A stretch of 45,913 bases of DNA from Desulfobacterales bacterium (lineage in GTDB: Bacteria > Desulfobacterota > Desulfobacteria > Desulfobacterales > SKZT01). Where the stretch lies: positions 1 through 45,913 of the forward strand of contig JAGYNR010000006.1 in assembly GCA_018399715.1 (NCBI GenBank). Reading direction: 5' to 3'. The notes beneath the pieces are model-generated. The model saw only the letters and a program-made list of their open reading frames with translations, had not been told where the DNA came from and made no database searches. The translations under genes and the position numbers were made by a program. This document shows, piece by piece, positions 10,976-21,727 of the stretch (the stretch's first letter is position 1; each line of letters begins with the position of its first letter).

Positions 10976-12226
10976 ATGGCCGAAGATCTCAAAAAAATGT
11001 ACAAAACCATCGTAAAAGACAATTTTCCGCCAAAAATGGAAATTACATTTGCCGATGAAAAAAACCGTCAAACCCTTTTTTATGAAAGAGTTTCCTGGAA
11101 TATTGAAGGAGTTGAAAGAGGATTGCGATACGGTGAGAATCCCGGTCAGGAAGCAGCCTTGTATCGTCTTGTAAATGGAAATCTCGTTCTTAGCGAGACA
11201 AGAACTATTCAACCGGGTCAATATCTTGCCTCGGATATCGAACTGCTTCAGTCAGGCAAGCATCCGGGAAAAACAAATCTGACCGATACTGACAATGCCC
11301 TGAACATCCTTCGCTATTTCACTGATAAACCGACTGTTGTAATTGTCAAGCACAACAATCCATGCGGTGTAGCTCAATCGGACAGTCTACCGGATGCTTA
11401 CATGAATGCCTACATGGCAGACCGCGTGGCTGCTTTCGGAGGATGCATTGCTTTAAATCGCTCTGTGGATAAAGTTACGGCTGAAGCCATCAGCCAACAA
11501 TATGCGGAAGTTGTGGTTGCCCCCGACTATGATGAGGGAGTCATGGAAATCCTTTCCCGCAGAAAAAATTTGAGAGTTATTCGCATTGACAATATTAACA
11601 GGCTGCACAATTTTGTTGGACAGCGGTGTGTTGAATTTAAAAGCCTTATTGACGGCGGAATGATCACTCAGTGGTCTTTCGTACCCCAGGTTCGGGATAA
11701 AGCTGATTTTAAACTGGCCGCGTGCGAATACCAGGGTAAACCCTATAAAATAAACCGTGTGCCAACGCCGGAAGAATATGCAGATTTGCTTTTCGGTTGG
11801 CTGGTGGAAGCAGGCGTTACCTCTAATTCGGTCCTTTATGTCAAAAATCGGGTGACTGTTGGCATCGGAACCGGAGAACAGGATCGGGTTGGTGTAGCTG
11901 AAATTGCCAGGGACAAGGCTTATCGGAAGCTCGCTGATCGGTATTGTTTTGAAATTTACAAGTTTGGTTACAACGATTTGAAGGATATCGATAAGAAAAA
12001 AGAAATCGACGACCGGGTGACAAAGGAAAAAGGAGGATTGGTCGGAGCTGCAATGGTCAGCGATGCATTCTTTCCTTTCCGGGACGGCGTGGATATCGGT
12101 ATCCGGGAAAATATTTCTTCAGTGGTACAACCCGGCGGTTCCACAAATGATTATCAATCTATCGAGGCCTGTAATGAAGCTGATGTCACCATGGTCTTCA
12201 CTGGTCAGAGAAGTTTCAAACATTAG
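10976..12226 (+). CDS. Standalone AICAR transformylase-like protein (PurH C-terminal domain only)
   Basis: LRYGENPGQEAALYRL...VIVKHNNPCGVAQSDSLPDAYMNAYMADRVAAFGGCIALN...FFPFRDGVDIG...VVQPGGSTND; no N-terminal MGS/IMP cyclohydrolase domain. Confidence 0.85.
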   Translation: MAEDLKKMYKTIVKDNFPPKMEITFADEKNRQTLFYERVSWNIEGVERGLRYGENPGQEAALYRLVNGNLVLSETRTIQPGQYLASDIELLQSGKHPGKTNLTDTDNALNILRYFTDKPTVVIVKHNNPCGVAQSDSLPDAYMNAYMADRVAAFGGCIALNRSVDKVTAEAISQQYAEVVVAPDYDEGVMEILSRRKNLRVIRIDNINRLHNFVGQRCVEFKSLIDGGMITQWSFVPQVRDKADFKLAACEYQGKPYKINRVPTPEEYADLLFGWLVEAGVTSNSVLYVKNRVTVGIGTGEQDRVGVAEIARDKAYRKLADRYCFEIYKFGYNDLKDIDKKKEIDDRVTKEKGGLVGAAMVSDAFFPFRDGVDIGIRENISSVVQPGGSTNDYQSIEACNEADVTMVFTGQRSFKH

Positions 12227-12452
12227 AAATTGTCGAAGGTAGGGGGCCGTACTTATAAGGGGTAACACAGTTTGTAGGATATCCTTCTTGCGTATCGATA
12301 AACAAAGATTTGCCGAAACGACGGGGTCTTGAAAGAAAATAATACATACCGCTTTCGACAAGCTGATGAACCATGGGGGTTTTATCCACATACGCATAGC
12401 CGTCGTAGATGATCTTGCTTATGGTGCTGACCTCGATAGACAGTTTTTTCAT
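12216..12452 (-). pseudogene. N-terminal remnant of an AAA-ATPase-like (DUF1703/PD-(D/E)XK) protein
   Basis: KKLSIEVSTISKIIYDGYAYVDKTPMVHQLVESGMYYFLSRPRRFGKSLFIDT matches family N-terminus then diverges; only 78 aa against several hundred for the full family. Confidence 0.7.
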
Positions 12453-13831: not shown

Positions 13832-13869
13832 AAAAAAAGGCGCCTGCCTCTGTTAAAGGGACAGGCGCC
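13832..13869 (-). terminator. Rho-independent terminator of the qrc operon (minus strand)
   Basis: Minus strand: GGCGCCTG...CAGGCGCC hairpin followed by TTTTTTT. Confidence 0.8.
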
Positions 13870-13906: not shown

Positions 13907-14071
13907 TCAGTGGTCCTCGTGATGCCCACCTTTTCCTGTTATGGTATCATATGCGGATTTTCCAATACAGTACGTCATGCCCAGACCGATTATACTCAGC
14001 GCATACCATAATCCGCCATGAAACACATAATGACTCATATCCCAAGTCCACTCAAAGGAAAATGGAAACAT
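13907..14071 (-). CDS. 54-aa single-TM small protein at the end of the qrc operon
   Basis: MFPFSFEWTWDMSHYVFHGGLWYALSIIGLGMTYCIGKSAYDTITGKGGHHEDH; RBS GGAGG upstream, 19 nt from qrcD stop, followed by terminator. Below the ORF-track size cutoff. Confidence 0.75.
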   Translation of the reverse strand: MFPFSFEWTWDMSHYVFHGGLWYALSIIGLGMTYCIGKSAYDTITGKGGHHEDH

Positions 14072-14090: not shown

Positions 14091-15428
14091 TCAACCGGCT
14101 GATTCGGCCGGAGTTAAATCTTGTGAGGCCATATCCTGTTCAATAGCTTCTTTTTGTACTGTTTCTGCTTCCGATAGCAGTTCCTCGGGTGGCGGGTTTA
14201 ACTCACTTTCCTGAGGAAAAATTGGTAAATAGCGATAAGACAACGAAATCAGGATTGTGCCATACGCTACCGGCAAAATAGTTGTTGCAATTTCCTGCCA
14301 ACTGGGAAAATAGGTAAACCAGTTTTCAAAGGTCAGAACCGGTACAGCCAAAACCTGAAGCACCATCACCCACCTGTTGAGACTGACCCCAACACATGCC
14401 AGAATGACCGCTATCCAAAGCAGTAAGGGCGTTTGTCTGCCTTTTCTGGTTACCAGAATAAGAGCCGGAATAACACCGCCGACAATCACTTCCATAATCA
14501 AGATCCAGTATCCATAGGCGGACCCGGGGTTATTTGTATAAAACTGATCCAGGGTAAACCCCATTTTCGGCGCTGTAACATAAGCCCAGTAAAGAGTATC
14601 TATAATCTTCGCGGTAATATACGTCAGCAACATCCACCCAGAAATTTTGGCCAGCAGTTCGACCACATTATCTTTGACCAGCTTTTTGCCCACCACTTTT
14701 TCAGTAATTTTGGTAATCAGGATTGTAAAGCATGGACCACAGGCCGCTGCAGACCATGTGAATAAAAAGAAAGTCCATGGCCAAATCAATACACCTTCCC
14801 GAAAACCAAACGGTCTTCCATACAGTACACCAGCCACACCACCGAGTGAGCCCTGGTGAAAAAACGAGAGAAAAGCACCGGTTGCTGCAAAAACCGCCAT
14901 TACTTCATGCATGTTGTGGCTTAAATTATGGAAAAACGGAATTTTGTCTATTTGACGGTTCTCCAGGATCAGCGGCAGATACTCGATAGTCAGCACGCCA
15001 AAATAGCAACTGAGGCAAAAAGCCACTTCCGTCAGCATGGAATGTACATTTGCGTGCCAGAAAATGAACCATCCTCTCAGTGGCTGACCAATGTCAATCG
15101 CCAGAATCAACAGGGCTGAGCTATAGCAGATAAATCCGATCAGAACGGCATAATTGATAATATTTTTCAGTTCCTTTTTACCCACGATGTATCTCAAAAA
15201 CCCTGTAAAAAACGCTCCGCCGCCCAGAGCAATGACAGCCAGATCCGCCCAGATCCAAAGGGCGAAACCGAAAGCATTATTCATGTTTGTCTGATTGAGC
15301 CCCTTTGCCCAACAAAGAATCATGCCGTAAACGCCCCATAACAAAACGACACTGACGACGCCAATCCACAGTAAAAACTTTCCCAATGAACAGCGTTGAA
15401 CACCTTCAGGAATTAATTCTGAATCCAT
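14091..15428 (-). CDS. qrcD: Qrc complex NrfD/PsrC-like membrane subunit
   Basis: Polytopic NrfD-like protein, 445 aa, in qrcABCD order. Confidence 0.88.
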   Translation of the reverse strand: MDSELIPEGVQRCSLGKFLLWIGVVSVVLLWGVYGMILCWAKGLNQTNMNNAFGFALWIWADLAVIALGGGAFFTGFLRYIVGKKELKNIINYAVLIGFICYSSALLILAIDIGQPLRGWFIFWHANVHSMLTEVAFCLSCYFGVLTIEYLPLILENRQIDKIPFFHNLSHNMHEVMAVFAATGAFLSFFHQGSLGGVAGVLYGRPFGFREGVLIWPWTFFLFTWSAAACGPCFTILITKITEKVVGKKLVKDNVVELLAKISGWMLLTYITAKIIDTLYWAYVTAPKMGFTLDQFYTNNPGSAYGYWILIMEVIVGGVIPALILVTRKGRQTPLLLWIAVILACVGVSLNRWVMVLQVLAVPVLTFENWFTYFPSWQEIATTILPVAYGTILISLSYRYLPIFPQESELNPPPEELLSEAETVQKEAIEQDMASQDLTPAESAG

Positions 15429-15496: not shown

Positions 15497-16297
15497 TCAA
15501 TGCTTTTTCGGTTCCACATCTACCTTCTCATTTTCGATATAGTTGTCACCGGCTTCCCGTACCCATTCCCGACTGGAAAGGTAATATACCTTCGGATTGG
15601 TATGAAGCTTTTCAAGAAGCCTAAACGCCCTTGGATCCTGTTTAAGCTTATAGACCTTATGCTTTGGATTTAACAGATCTCCGAATGTAATGGCATTAGC
15701 AGGACAGGCTTCCACGCACGCAGGCTGATATTCATGCTCTTCAATCTCGGTACGCCCCTCGGTAAACGCTTTTTCTTTGGCGATCTGGTATCTCTGGAAA
15801 CAGAAGTTACATTTTTCAACCACACCTCGCATACGAACCGACACATTAGGATTGAGAGATCTCTCCATTCCACTGGGCCAGACCGGATCCCACCAGTTAA
15901 AGTGCCGAACATGGTAAGGACAGGCCGCCATGCAATACCGACAGCCAAAACAACGGGTATAAATCTGGCTTACAATTCCGGTTTCCATACTGTAATCTGT
16001 TGCAGTTGCCGGGCAAACTGAGACACAAGGAGAATGTCCGTGTTCCCCTATACCTGAACAATGCATACAGGGACGGGGCAGATAACAGATGTCTGTATCC
16101 GGATACGGCTTACCGTTGTCAAGCTTGAAGACCCGAAGCCAGGTAATGCTAAGCATTTTATCGGTTTCATCCTTCTGAAACGGTATATTGTTTTCCTGCA
16201 TGCATGCCACCATACAGGCGCCACATCCGGTACATTTGTCCAAGTCGATGACCATACCATATTTTTTTATGTGTTGGTCGTGTTGTCCTTCTTTCAT
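15497..16297 (-). CDS. qrcC: Qrc complex iron-sulfur subunit
   Basis: Ferredoxin motifs CTGCGACMVAC, CMHCSGIGEHGHSPCVSVCP, CFGCRYCMAACP, CNFC...CVEACP. Confidence 0.88.
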   Translation of the reverse strand: MKEGQHDQHIKKYGMVIDLDKCTGCGACMVACMQENNIPFQKDETDKMLSITWLRVFKLDNGKPYPDTDICYLPRPCMHCSGIGEHGHSPCVSVCPATATDYSMETGIVSQIYTRCFGCRYCMAACPYHVRHFNWWDPVWPSGMERSLNPNVSVRMRGVVEKCNFCFQRYQIAKEKAFTEGRTEIEEHEYQPACVEACPANAITFGDLLNPKHKVYKLKQDPRAFRLLEKLHTNPKVYYLSSREWVREAGDNYIENEKVDVEPKKH

Positions 16298-16404: not shown

Positions 16405-18645
16405 TCAAGATCTGGTCAGTTTGGCTCGGATTCCCCAGGCCATGTTGAGACCGGTTAACGGATCTTCAACAGTACCGATAACCTGGTTGGCATTAACGCC
16501 TTTGCCGTTGCCCATATATTCATCATATCCCGTATGACCCAACCCCGTCGGTGTTGCAATCATTCCCGGCCGAATACCTTCATTAAAGTTTACTTTAACC
16601 TGGGCTTCTCCAACCGGAGTTGTCAGGGTAGCAGATTCACCCTGAGAAAGTCCCAGATTTTGAGCCGTTTTGGGATTGATCTGAACCAGAACGTCATTTT
16701 TCACCAATGTTTCATCGGAGACAGCCTTCAACATGAAAGGTGTTGACCCCACATATCCGGTAGCCCTTTTCATTGAGCCGTAAGGCACCATTATCAATGG
16801 GTACTTCTTTTCATCGCCTTCCAACGCCGTCGGATAATAATGAGGAATGCCAATATTGTTCTCATCCGCATTTTTTACAAGGGAAGAGACAAATTCGAAT
16901 TTGCCGGATGGCGTTTCAAATACCCATTTATTGGGTGCAAAACCACTGTCTACATCGTAAACCTTTTTATAAAGCTGATTCCATCGACTTCCAAGCGTTT
17001 GTTTCAGGCAGCCTTTATAATCTTTCCAACCAAAAGCGCCTGAAATGGAATTTCCCATGCATTTTGCCAGTTTGATAATGACATCTCCGGTGTGCATGGT
17101 ATTGAGCTGTGGTTTGACAACCGGTTTGGCCAGACTCAAAATGGGATACTGAAGGCCGTTGGGAGTAGGCACATCTTCATATCGTTCCAGATAAGTATGG
17201 TTGGGAAGAATAAGATCAGCGTTTTTAGCAGTCTCGTCCATATATGAAGAAAAACTGACAATAAACGGTATTTTATCAAAAGCCGCCTGAACCGCTTTCG
17301 TATCCGGCATGGAATACAGTGGATTGGAATTGTAAACAAGCAAGGCCTCAATCGGATATGCCGATCCCTCATTAATCTTTTTAGGAAAACGGTTTAGCAG
17401 GCTTTGGACATACGGATAATCTTTGCTTCCAGCCCCATCAACCCGTTCCTGCTGCATTCCCAGGGAGGCAACTTTGTCCATTATCGGATGAGGCCATCGA
17501 ATATACTCGTTTTTGGGTAATGTCCATACGCCGCCCTTACTGTTAATATTTCCTACAAGTGCATTTAAAGCATGAACCGCCATGAACTCATGGATATTGC
17601 CGGGAACATCACCTTTCCCTCGCCCGCAAATCGCAATCGGATGTTTTGATGCTGCAAATGCTCTTGCAACTTCTTCAATAACAGACGGATCAATTCCGGC
17701 CACATCCGATACCCGGGCAGGACTGTATGCATCTAAAACCAGTTTTTTGTATTGATCAAACCCTTCGGATGCCTCCTTGATAAACCCCTTATTATAAAGA
17801 TTTTCCTTTATAATAACATGAGAAATTCCCATCGCCAAAGCAGCTTCGGTTCCCGGCTCGATGGAAATCCACCGATCCATTTTGGCGGCCGTATTAGACA
17901 ATCGCGAATCAACCTGAACGACTGTTCCTTTTGTCCGCCAATTGCTGTTTGCTAAAAACATCCGAACCGGAGCTCCCCATCCCTCGATAATCCCACTACC
18001 AAAAGAAAGTATATAATCGGCGTTTTCAAAATCGAATCCCGCCGAACCGGTAGCGCCCTGCATCAGGTACAGCATCGCCTCATAGGAATCCTGAATACTG
18101 GGTTCGGTCATGAAGTTGGGTGAACCGTAGACGGTCATAAAGCGATTGATCAACCGGGCGACTGTCCCCTCTTTGCTTCCCGAAACAGCAGCTACCTGAT
18201 GGGGATTACCGGATGCCCGAATTTGATTGAGCTTTGAGGATACCTCCGACAACGCCTCTTTCCAGGAGATTCTTTTCCACCTTCCTTCTCCTCTTTCACC
18301 TGTTCGCTTCATTGGCGCCTCAACCCGAAAAGGACCGTACAGCAATTGTAACCCTGAATTACCCAGAATACAGGTGCCGCCCTTATTGACAGGATGCTCT
18401 TCCATACCAGCAATCTGTACCGCCCGTTCATCGACTTTACGAACAGTAATACCACACCCGCCCGGACAGAGGGTACAAACGGTATTCTCATAGGTATAAG
18501 CGCCATCGGGGGGTACCGGTGTCCAAGGCCACATTTGTGTCCAAATGGAGATATCGTCCGTTAGTTTCCAGGGCAATGGAGACAGGGTAATTCCGGCAGC
18601 AGCTCCAATGCCGAATGATAAGAAACATCTTCTACTCAGTTTCAT
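16405..18645 (-). CDS. qrcB: Qrc complex molybdopterin-oxidoreductase-like subunit
   Basis: Tat-like N-terminus SRRCFLSFGIGAAAG, CTLCPGGCGITVRKV...C iron-sulfur motif, molybdopterin oxidoreductase fold; operon context. Confidence 0.88.
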   Translation of the reverse strand: MKLSRRCFLSFGIGAAAGITLSPLPWKLTDDISIWTQMWPWTPVPPDGAYTYENTVCTLCPGGCGITVRKVDERAVQIAGMEEHPVNKGGTCILGNSGLQLLYGPFRVEAPMKRTGERGEGRWKRISWKEALSEVSSKLNQIRASGNPHQVAAVSGSKEGTVARLINRFMTVYGSPNFMTEPSIQDSYEAMLYLMQGATGSAGFDFENADYILSFGSGIIEGWGAPVRMFLANSNWRTKGTVVQVDSRLSNTAAKMDRWISIEPGTEAALAMGISHVIIKENLYNKGFIKEASEGFDQYKKLVLDAYSPARVSDVAGIDPSVIEEVARAFAASKHPIAICGRGKGDVPGNIHEFMAVHALNALVGNINSKGGVWTLPKNEYIRWPHPIMDKVASLGMQQERVDGAGSKDYPYVQSLLNRFPKKINEGSAYPIEALLVYNSNPLYSMPDTKAVQAAFDKIPFIVSFSSYMDETAKNADLILPNHTYLERYEDVPTPNGLQYPILSLAKPVVKPQLNTMHTGDVIIKLAKCMGNSISGAFGWKDYKGCLKQTLGSRWNQLYKKVYDVDSGFAPNKWVFETPSGKFEFVSSLVKNADENNIGIPHYYPTALEGDEKKYPLIMVPYGSMKRATGYVGSTPFMLKAVSDETLVKNDVLVQINPKTAQNLGLSQGESATLTTPVGEAQVKVNFNEGIRPGMIATPTGLGHTGYDEYMGNGKGVNANQVIGTVEDPLTGLNMAWGIRAKLTRS

Positions 18646-18725: not shown

Positions 18726-19388
18726 CTATTTATGACAAACAAAACAGGGTCCTTTTTTGGTTTGGACACTATATTGTTTGACATTATTTTCGCGGTGACA
18801 TTCCGCACAATCATCCATCTTCATACGATCCCAGGTATTTTTCTTGATTCCGCTAATGTTATGCCCCCAGATATTGCGACTATAACCAGTAATAATATTG
18901 TACTCATAAACCGGCAAACTGGTAGAATTACCAATATGCCCATGACAGGTCTTACATTGCATTTCCCCCGCAAGAACATGGGCAGCATGGGAAAAGAAGA
19001 CACAGTCAGGCTGCCTGGAATAAACCAGCCAGGGGACCTCCCGGTTATTCCGGACATATTCGTTGACGAAAATTTCTTCATCCTTGGTTATGCCCTGCAC
19101 ATCTGTGTGACATTCAATACATTGATTCAATTTAGGGGCACCGGAATAGGTACCATCATTACGGAAAAAATGGCAGCTCTGGCAACCGTCCAGCACCATC
19201 TCATTGTGAAGGGCGTGGTTGAAATCAAACGGCTGCTCCTTCTGGCAATACAGTACCTTTGGGAAAAGAACCCACCCTACCAGAAGGCTCACCACTAAAC
19301 CGACAATGAAAAAAATAAAAACAATTCCAGCACCTCCGTCTGATGCTTTTGCAGAAACCTCTTTGGCTTTTTCCTGTGATGCACTCAT
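18726..19388 (-). CDS. qrcA: Qrc complex multiheme cytochrome c subunit
   Basis: N-terminal TM anchor and five CXXCH motifs (CQSCH, CIECH, CKTCH, CAECH, CFVCH). Confidence 0.88.
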   Translation of the reverse strand: MSASQEKAKEVSAKASDGGAGIVFIFFIVGLVVSLLVGWVLFPKVLYCQKEQPFDFNHALHNEMVLDGCQSCHFFRNDGTYSGAPKLNQCIECHTDVQGITKDEEIFVNEYVRNNREVPWLVYSRQPDCVFFSHAAHVLAGEMQCKTCHGHIGNSTSLPVYEYNIITGYSRNIWGHNISGIKKNTWDRMKMDDCAECHRENNVKQYSVQTKKGPCFVCHK

Positions 19389-19478: not shown

Positions 19479-20318
19479 CTAACCCATAGCCCCATAACTG
19501 TGAAGACCCGGAAGAAGATTAACGCCGAAATACGTAAATATAACTGCCATGAACCCCAGAATCGATAAAAAAGCGATCCGTTTTCCGTGCCATCCACGCA
19601 TCATGCGAGCATGAATCAATGTGGAATAGACAAACCATGTTATCAGTGACCAGGTCTCTTTCGGGTCCCACCCCCAGTATCTTCCCCAGGCGGAGTTGGC
19701 CCACACCGCGCCGGTTATAATTCCTCCGGTCAAAAATAAAAATCCGAACATGATCAATTGATAAGTCAATTCATCCAGAACTTTATTATCCGGCAGACGG
19801 CTCAATACCCCCTCTTCCCGGATTGTTCCACCTTTTATGATATACATGATACTGACACCAAAAGCGATTGCAAATGCGGCATAACCAATAAAACAGGTAA
19901 CAACATGGGCAATTAGCCAGTTGCTTTTCAAGGCGGGGATAAGCGGCTGAATCTTATCATTGATGTTAGGGGAAAGGCTGGCATAGGCAATGGCTAAAAA
20001 GGCCAAAGGTATCGCAAAAGCCCCTATTATCCGGTTTCCATATTTATGCTCCACAACGAGATAAATAACAGTGATGGTCATGGCAAAAAAAACCAGTGAT
20101 TCATAAAGATTGGATAGCGGCGCATGGCCGATCCCCATCTGGTAAGATTCTATCCATCTCAAAATGATACCAGCCAGATTCCCGACCATTCCCAGAAAGG
20201 CGACCCAGGTACCCACTCTACCGGCGATTTCCTTTTTAAAAACCCATGCAAAAATATACAAAAATGCGGCTAATCCGTAAACTAGCGTTGTTAAAGACAA
20301 TATGGCGGAACTGTTCAT
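19479..20318 (-). CDS. ccsA: Cytochrome c biogenesis protein CcsA/ResC-like (System II)
   Basis: GIGHAPLSNLYESLVFFA...WANSAWGRYWGWDPKETWSLITWFVYSTLIHARMM: WWD-domain signature. Confidence 0.92.
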   Translation of the reverse strand: MNSSAILSLTTLVYGLAAFLYIFAWVFKKEIAGRVGTWVAFLGMVGNLAGIILRWIESYQMGIGHAPLSNLYESLVFFAMTITVIYLVVEHKYGNRIIGAFAIPLAFLAIAYASLSPNINDKIQPLIPALKSNWLIAHVVTCFIGYAAFAIAFGVSIMYIIKGGTIREEGVLSRLPDNKVLDELTYQLIMFGFLFLTGGIITGAVWANSAWGRYWGWDPKETWSLITWFVYSTLIHARMMRGWHGKRIAFLSILGFMAVIFTYFGVNLLPGLHSYGAMG

Positions 20319-20356
20319 TCATTATCCTCACATTAAAAATTCAGGTTTAAAAGTGG

Positions 20357-21727
20357 TTAGCTGTGATCCTGTAGATTTTCCGTTATTTTCTTTATTTTTT
20401 GCTGCATTCCCAGCTTGTTTTTATTGGCGGTTCCAGCCACCATTACACGACTGTTTTCTTCAGTTTTAATAGTTTCGATGCAAATCCGTTGATGAGACAT
20501 AAAAAGGGTAACAAAACATCCTAATATCATAATGATAAACCCTATATAAACGACCGGAACTCCCGGATCATGAGTCACCTGGAGACCAGTATAGTACCGT
20601 TTATCATAATCCCTGATGGAAATAATCAGCTCTCCTTTTCTCATTTTATCAAAACCGGGAAACCGTGTCGGAAGTATCACTTCTATGGGATTGCCGTCTT
20701 TTGGCCTTAAAATCCCCAAAAAAGATTCACCAATATCGTGCCCCCGAAATAAAGCGTTACGGCTGTATTTCTTCAGGGAAAACATGCCGATCCCCTCGGG
20801 AAGTTCAATGGTCTCTCCGATTTTGACCTTTTTAATGTAATCAAGACCCGATTTTCTACTGGTGATATCGAGTGTAGCCGTATCCGCAGCGTCGGTACCA
20901 TAACTTGACTGAAAAATATTGATACCTTTAAACCGAATGGGATCATTGACCACAATATTTTTTTTAAAAACAGGTTGTCCTTCTTCGAAAATGGTTATGA
21001 GGCTGCGATATTCCTTCGGTGCCCCCGACTCGTAAAAGCTGACATCAAAATCTTCACATCGAATTTCAAAATCAAGCTGATGACGCTCCTGTCTATTGTT
21101 AAGCCAAATACTGTCGACCGTCTCTCCTTCCGGAATGTTCACATATCCTTCAAAGCCAAAAACAGACCCCAGCAAGCCGCCAAACAGCAGAAAAATAATG
21201 CTAAGGTGAACGATGTAAGCCCCCAAGCGGGTCCACCGCCCTTTTTCTCCAAACAGGCACCAGCCATTATCAGTTCCTTCCACCCGACAATATCTGAATT
21301 TTTGACGGATAAACGACTCATAAATTTTCCGTAGTACATTAGGGGATTTTTTACTGACAAACTCCTGTTTTTTGGCGTCGCTCCTGAAATTTCTAACGTT
21401 AAAGGGAGGATTTTTAACAGATACAATTTTCCAGATGACCGGAAAACGATCCAGGGAACAGACAATGACGTTAACCGTTAATAAGATTAGCAGCAGTTGA
21501 AACCACCAGGAATGGTACATATCAAAAAAATTTAAAAGACCAAATATCCTGAAAAGCTTCTCCCCGAACGCATCGATATAGGCTGCAGAGCTTTGGTTCT
21601 GCGGGATGACTGTTCCGATAACGGAAGTGACTGCAAGTGACAGCAAAACCGCAACGGTAAGCTTTACAGTTGCAAAAAACCTCCAAATACTTTTCAGAAA
21701 ATTTGGAGGCGTTTCTTTCTTTTCCAT
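20357..21727 (-). CDS. resB: Cytochrome c biogenesis protein ResB/CcsB-like
   Basis: WRFFATVKLTVAVLLSLAVTSVIGTVIPQ...RLGAYIVHLSIIFLLFGGLLGS...; paired with CcsA. Confidence 0.9.
   Translation of the reverse strand: MEKKETPPNFLKSIWRFFATVKLTVAVLLSLAVTSVIGTVIPQNQSSAAYIDAFGEKLFRIFGLLNFFDMYHSWWFQLLLILLTVNVIVCSLDRFPVIWKIVSVKNPPFNVRNFRSDAKKQEFVSKKSPNVLRKIYESFIRQKFRYCRVEGTDNGWCLFGEKGRWTRLGAYIVHLSIIFLLFGGLLGSVFGFEGYVNIPEGETVDSIWLNNRQERHQLDFEIRCEDFDVSFYESGAPKEYRSLITIFEEGQPVFKKNIVVNDPIRFKGINIFQSSYGTDAADTATLDITSRKSGLDYIKKVKIGETIELPEGIGMFSLKKYSRNALFRGHDIGESFLGILRPKDGNPIEVILPTRFPGFDKMRKGELIISIRDYDKRYYTGLQVTHDPGVPVVYIGFIIMILGCFVTLFMSHQRICIETIKTEENSRVMVAGTANKNKLGMQQKIKKITENLQDHS

Follow-up and report, generated by a model that had tools for sequence, protein, structure and literature searches.

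The qrc operon and the small gene behind it

The window analysed here, the whole of a 45,913-nucleotide (nt) stretch of contig JAGYNR010000006.1 from a Desulfobacterales bacterium (assembly GCA_018399715.1), carries on its minus strand the genes for Qrc, the complex that in many sulfate reducers is the entry point for electrons from hydrogen and formate into menaquinone and thereby builds a proton-motive force. Directly behind qrcD lies a small open reading frame (ORF) of 54 amino acids (aa), to which an original prediction had drawn attention as a possible extra Qrc subunit or assembly factor, and whose product is referred to below as QrcE, a working label and nothing more. Genomic comparison strongly supports the dedication of this small protein to Qrc, and it is probably an overlooked accessory (fifth) subunit that stabilises QrcD together with its quinone/proton site, in the manner of CydX. 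The features concerned are as follows.

13907..14071, minus strand: small ORF, proposed Qrc accessory subunit, a predicted one-helix membrane protein of 54 aa
14080..14086, minus strand: Shine-Dalgarno (SD) sequence AAGGAGG of the small ORF, with 8 nt between GGAGG and ATG
13832..13869, minus strand: intrinsic terminator, a GC-rich hairpin with seven U, -21.6 kcal/mol, z -4.87
14091..15428, minus strand: qrcD, NrfD/PsrC-like integral membrane subunit (NF041784, 697 bits, cut-off 570)
15497..16297, minus strand: qrcC, iron-sulfur subunit (NF041782, 444 bits, cut-off 400)
16405..18645, minus strand: qrcB, molybdopterin-oxidoreductase-like subunit (NF041783, 538 bits, cut-off 440)
18726..19388, minus strand: qrcA, membrane-anchored multihaem cytochrome c (PF02085, PF14522; several CxxCH motifs; in the qrcA position)

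The ORF runs from 14071 to 13907, a strand that the original prediction had left out, and its product, MFPFSFEWTWDMSHYVFHGGLWYALSIIGLGMTYCIGKSAYDTITGKGGHHEDH, is identical to the sequence quoted there. The good ribosome-binding site claimed for it was found in the SD sequence, which lies inside the 19-nt gap between the qrcD stop codon, TGATAATAA, and the ATG of the small ORF, and the terminator said to stand just behind it is also present, its hairpin beginning 38 nt past the stop and folding better than 200 of 200 shuffled sequences. The next gene past the terminator is murA-like.

Conservation and co-occurrence with QrcD

The original prediction was staked on conservation of the ORF downstream of qrcD in relatives. 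In 35 of 40 genomes of the same order the ORF is present, in frame and as one strong match each, and QrcD is also absent from all five of the others, where QrcD scores reach only the level of paralogues (at most 123 bits against the cut-off of 570) and where a more sensitive profile for the small protein still gave no match. An alignment of 19 small-protein sequences contains 21 invariant columns, and among 98 distinct coding sequences of the family the entropy at codon positions 1, 2 and 3 is 0.64, 0.37 and 1.37, with a median ratio of nonsynonymous to synonymous substitution rates (dN/dS) of 0.18 over 337 unsaturated pairs. Of 128 distinct family members, 120 have an SD-like motif ahead of the gene, and in the 106 linked loci the small gene lies directly 3' of qrcD, the gap having a median of 23 nt. 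The small gene is under purifying selection, and its conservation is far beyond chance. That it is a chance ORF or a non-functional remnant, as its 54 aa and moderate hydrophobicity might suggest, is refuted by this selection, the variability of third positions, the SD-like motifs and conservation across the phylum.

Two profiles were searched against 395 Desulfobacterota genomes. The first, A1, was built from close relatives in the same order only and, without any seed from beyond it, already placed 69 of 69 clear members in genomes with QrcD, the other three matches (E 0.005-0.006) sitting inside larger frames. The second, A2, represents the broader family, a strong match being one with E of 2.2e-11 or less; its co-occurrence is partly circular because A2 contains sequences from some of the searched genomes, and it also recovered members from families without seeds (f53, f103, f48) and from unseeded genomes (G312, G332, G406). 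Members of the family are single-helix proteins of 46-76 aa, the distant ones often not adjoining qrcD, and they share the motif P-x4-W...D-x2-H-x2-F...G.L[YW]...IG.G...K, followed by a C-terminal end that is often rich in histidine. No Pfam or NCBIfam model gave a relevant match to 32 family members, the best E-values being at chance level, and no chain in the PDB matched the family profile (best E 0.27). In the open-licence literature, outside which most subscription journals fall, no fifth Qrc subunit was found, nor any paper pairing 'QrcE' with sulfate-reducing organisms. As far as that literature goes, the small protein appears to found a new, previously undescribed phylum-wide family; small accessory helices are already known from respiratory complexes, and it is this family and its tie to Qrc that appear new.

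Across the phylum sample, the presence of the small gene follows that of QrcD with a single exception. Strong A2 matches occur in 79 genomes, one per genome, all of them among the 80 genomes with QrcD, and in none of the 315 genomes without it; weak matches in the latter (E 5e-4 and worse) are mostly inside large unrelated frames and were taken as chance. The lone QrcD-bearing genome without the small gene, G041, is 66% complete and has qrcD at a contig edge. In Desulfovibrionales the two genes are concordant in 59 of 61 genomes, both discordant ones (G448 and G467) being 85% complete. Together with the 106 linked loci, these counts support, at the level of genome content, the suggestion of the original prediction that the small protein belongs to Qrc, as a subunit or an assembly factor. 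The Fisher value for QrcD against the small gene, 2e-83, is inflated by relatedness, and a stronger case is made by the repeated absence of the two together: both are missing from the Desulfovibrionales genera g111, g292 and g282, while their sister genera retain both, and the small gene has been lost jointly with Qrc in several lineages, though it is often unlinked. Two observations on QrcD copy number may be recorded. Genome G456, 89% complete with 5% contamination, has two QrcD copies (C145 and C100) and a single copy of the small protein, and contamination is possible; in G019 a second, divergent QrcD-like NrfD protein (C12:76726-77835, L258; 110 bits) occurs alongside the true qrcD.

Could the small gene mark something broader than Qrc? 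DsrP is present in 245 of the 395 genomes, and 173 genomes with DsrP and without QrcD have no family member, which rules out its being a general marker of sulfate reduction. A marker of Hmc is ruled out by the differing distribution of HmcC, since 17 genomes with HmcC have no small gene and 16 with the small gene have no HmcC; within Desulfovibrionales, too, HmcC departs from the pattern common to QrcD and the small gene.

The prediction that the small gene closes the qrc operon holds in the window and is not general. Coordinate comparison placed the gene beside qrcD in 41 of 79 genomes, belonging to several families, and elsewhere in the other 38, where separations reach megabases, as in the single-contig genome G438 (683,643 against 3,637,171). 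Synteny therefore cannot account for the co-occurrence, and co-inheritance without linkage supports a shared function more strongly than an operon alone would. In Desulfovibrionales, which is probably the order sampled through genome G079, the small gene is flanked by rsmA and yqeY in most loci inspected, whereas in other families with an unlinked copy its neighbours are tatC or sugar-nucleotide genes; no conserved partner gene was found beside unlinked copies among the loci inspected. Qrc was purified from N. vulgaris, a member of an order with the unlinked form and itself probably of the rsmA/yqeY arrangement, which may explain why the small protein was missed.

These data bear on whether the small protein serves another membrane system that shares the distribution of Qrc in Desulfobacterota by coincidence. 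About half of the copies are indeed unlinked to qrc and stand among unrelated genes, as such a system would allow; the adjacency to qrcD in several families, the clearly different distributions of DsrP and HmcC, and its recurring absence alongside that of Qrc within families make this very improbable.

Anatomy and proposed role of the small protein

The single transmembrane helix of the original prediction was recovered by AlphaFold2, run with A2 on the small protein alone, as one helix spanning residues 12-45. Its confidence (predicted local distance difference test), taken as a block mean, exceeds 90 for residues 21-40 and is about 55 in the first ten. On average, the 15 residues that precede the hydrophobic core contain 0.04 lysine plus arginine (K+R), against 2.13 after it, and the C-terminal side has the excess in 98.7% of members, a count that omits the N-terminal extensions of some families. 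By the positive-inside rule, this excess after the helix indicates an N-out/C-in orientation. Both a membrane-spanning helix and the charge asymmetry of a single-pass protein are thus found, although the helix of the window copy is only moderately hydrophobic (1.27 in its best 19-residue window, against a family mean of 1.88).

In the weighted family, P3, F17 and an aromatic residue at position 22 are conserved in 100% of members, followed by G31 (91%), H14 (88%), G19 (87%), W8 (86%), W10 (83%) and G29 (83%). Conservation therefore peaks where the helix enters the membrane on the periplasmic side, the side on which menaquinone is reduced, at the QrcC/QrcD interface according to the published model (PMC6303296). 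The His-rich tail of the original prediction proved common, with two or more histidines among the final 14 residues in 62% of members and at least one in 77%, and not universal, so that it was ruled out as a defining metal- or proton-binding site; P3, F17, H14, the aromatic residue at 22, G29 and G31 are the stronger signatures. The paired alignment holds about 24 effective sequences, too shallow for coevolution. Two groups have N-terminal extensions of their own: Desulfovibrionales members (L224-L253) share a strongly conserved GET(V/I)(Q/H)S.LPQD(L/I)PWW, and members in f110, f126 and f80 a different one, LKRS(V/L)(A/S)SMLPWDIPW.

On the reading favoured here, a single helix with its N-terminus in the periplasm and its C-terminus in the cytoplasm would pack onto QrcD, itself of ten helices. 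The conserved aromatic segment near its N-terminus (P-x4-W-x-W-D-x2-H-x2-F) would then be placed at the periplasmic surface of the membrane, the site of the QrcC/QrcD contact and of menaquinone reduction, and its tail, basic and often His-rich, would face the cytoplasm, the source of the protons. Bound in this way, the small protein may stabilise QrcD or complete it together with the quinone/proton site, a role comparable to that of CydX in cytochrome bd.

Several points weigh against a fifth subunit. Native and recombinant QrcABCD of N. vulgaris are described as having four visible subunits, and a plasmid carrying qrcABCD complements the deletion (PMC13059093). H14 and the His tail are each missing from some members, which rules out either as a ligand needed throughout the family. 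The weight of the gels is weak, because they were 10% gels (PMC13059093), on which a protein of 6-7 kDa is easily lost. Complementation by qrcABCD alone would be expected, because the small gene, if unlinked, would presumably stay intact in the deletion. No structure of Qrc was found in the PDB.

The chief competitor is an assembly or maturation factor specific to Qrc, one that helps to insert or protect QrcD or to join QrcABC to it and does not remain in the mature complex. The same co-occurrence speaks for it; a factor needed in sub-stoichiometric amounts could well be encoded apart from qrc, as the gene is in half of the genomes; and purified Qrc was reported with four subunits (PMC13059093). 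However, a single copy per genome, universality, conservation over the whole length and translation right after qrcD suit a helix present in stoichiometric amounts no less well, and the pattern is also that of known small stabilising subunits, CydX among them. An assembly factor is considered unlikely, if a serious rival. Less likely still, and by a clear step, is a regulator or adaptor outside the structure of Qrc, acting for instance in docking Qrc to Qmo, or to TpIc3 and hydrogenase, or in sensing the quinone pool. It would account for the co-occurrence with Qrc, and the lineage-specific extensions (GETVQSPLPQD in Desulfovibrionales, LKRSVASM in f110/f126/f80) could be docking surfaces; against it, the unlinked copies have no conserved partner gene alongside.

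The accessory-subunit reading can be pressed further, to a Qrc of five subunits in all Qrc-bearing Desulfobacterota, in which the small protein would be integral and functionally required at the electrogenic menaquinone/proton site, having been missed because the Desulfovibrionales gene lies between rsmA and yqeY. This stronger proposal is put forward tentatively, with doubt slightly outweighing belief. Residue mutagenesis of Qrc in 2026 assumed four subunits, and a fifth gene that is almost universal among Qrc bearers, confined to them and unlinked in the order of the model organisms would, if true, alter the design of recombinant Qrc and the reading of structures and mutant data. More broadly, the case shows how co-occurrence can bring to light small subunits of respiratory complexes, even well-studied ones, when their genes lie elsewhere.

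Comparison with known systems

QrcABCD as described (NF041782-NF041784; PMC6303296, PMC13059093) is the same operon as in the window and has the same phylogenetic distribution as the small family; it is described as having four subunits, and the available parts of both papers do not mention the small protein. Upstream of qrcA in the window stands a System II cytochrome c biogenesis-like pair (19479-21727, minus strand), CcsA/ResC-like with the WGWDPKE motif and ResB-like, and the D. multivorans genome paper likewise has qrcABCD adjoining ccsAB. Elsewhere in the window, a 78-aa ORF (12216-12452, minus strand) between a purH-like gene and murA aligns with the first quarter alone of the 201-residue AAA-ATPase_like domain (PF09820, E 9e-19) and is a truncated remnant.

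Like the small protein, CydX is very small, has a single helix and is dedicated to one membrane enzyme that reacts with quinones (PMC4325964, PMC6005532). QrcD and CydAB are also alike, both having duplicated four-helix bundles, a quinone site on the P side and proton uptake from the cytoplasm (PMC6303296). The enzyme is nevertheless a different one, the gene of the small Qrc-linked family is often unlinked, and no Pfam, NCBIfam or PDB match connects the family to CydX or to any other small subunit.

Qrc is related to alternative complex III (ACIII), which offers a precedent: ActG, a predicted one-helix subunit, was seen by mass spectrometry only, and ActH, a hypothetical protein, was discovered only on imaging of the complex (PMC5928083). 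ActH differs in being a periplasmic helical bundle. Homology to the small subunits of ACIII was sought through solved chains, and no PDB chain fell below E 0.27; the R. marinus structure shows no density for ActG, which is perhaps absent from the PDB.

HmcD, of 41-56 aa and one helix, is like the small protein in architecture and place, being encoded directly after the NrfD-like hmcC. Hmc is a sister complex, likewise interacting with TpIc3. HmcD-like one-helix ORFs of that length follow hmcC at L198, L199, L201 and L208-L222, and small proteins that partner NrfD-type subunits may be more general. Their conserved residues differ from those of the small Qrc-linked family, their distribution tracks Hmc rather than Qrc, and HHalign at two settings detected no homology (probability 2%).
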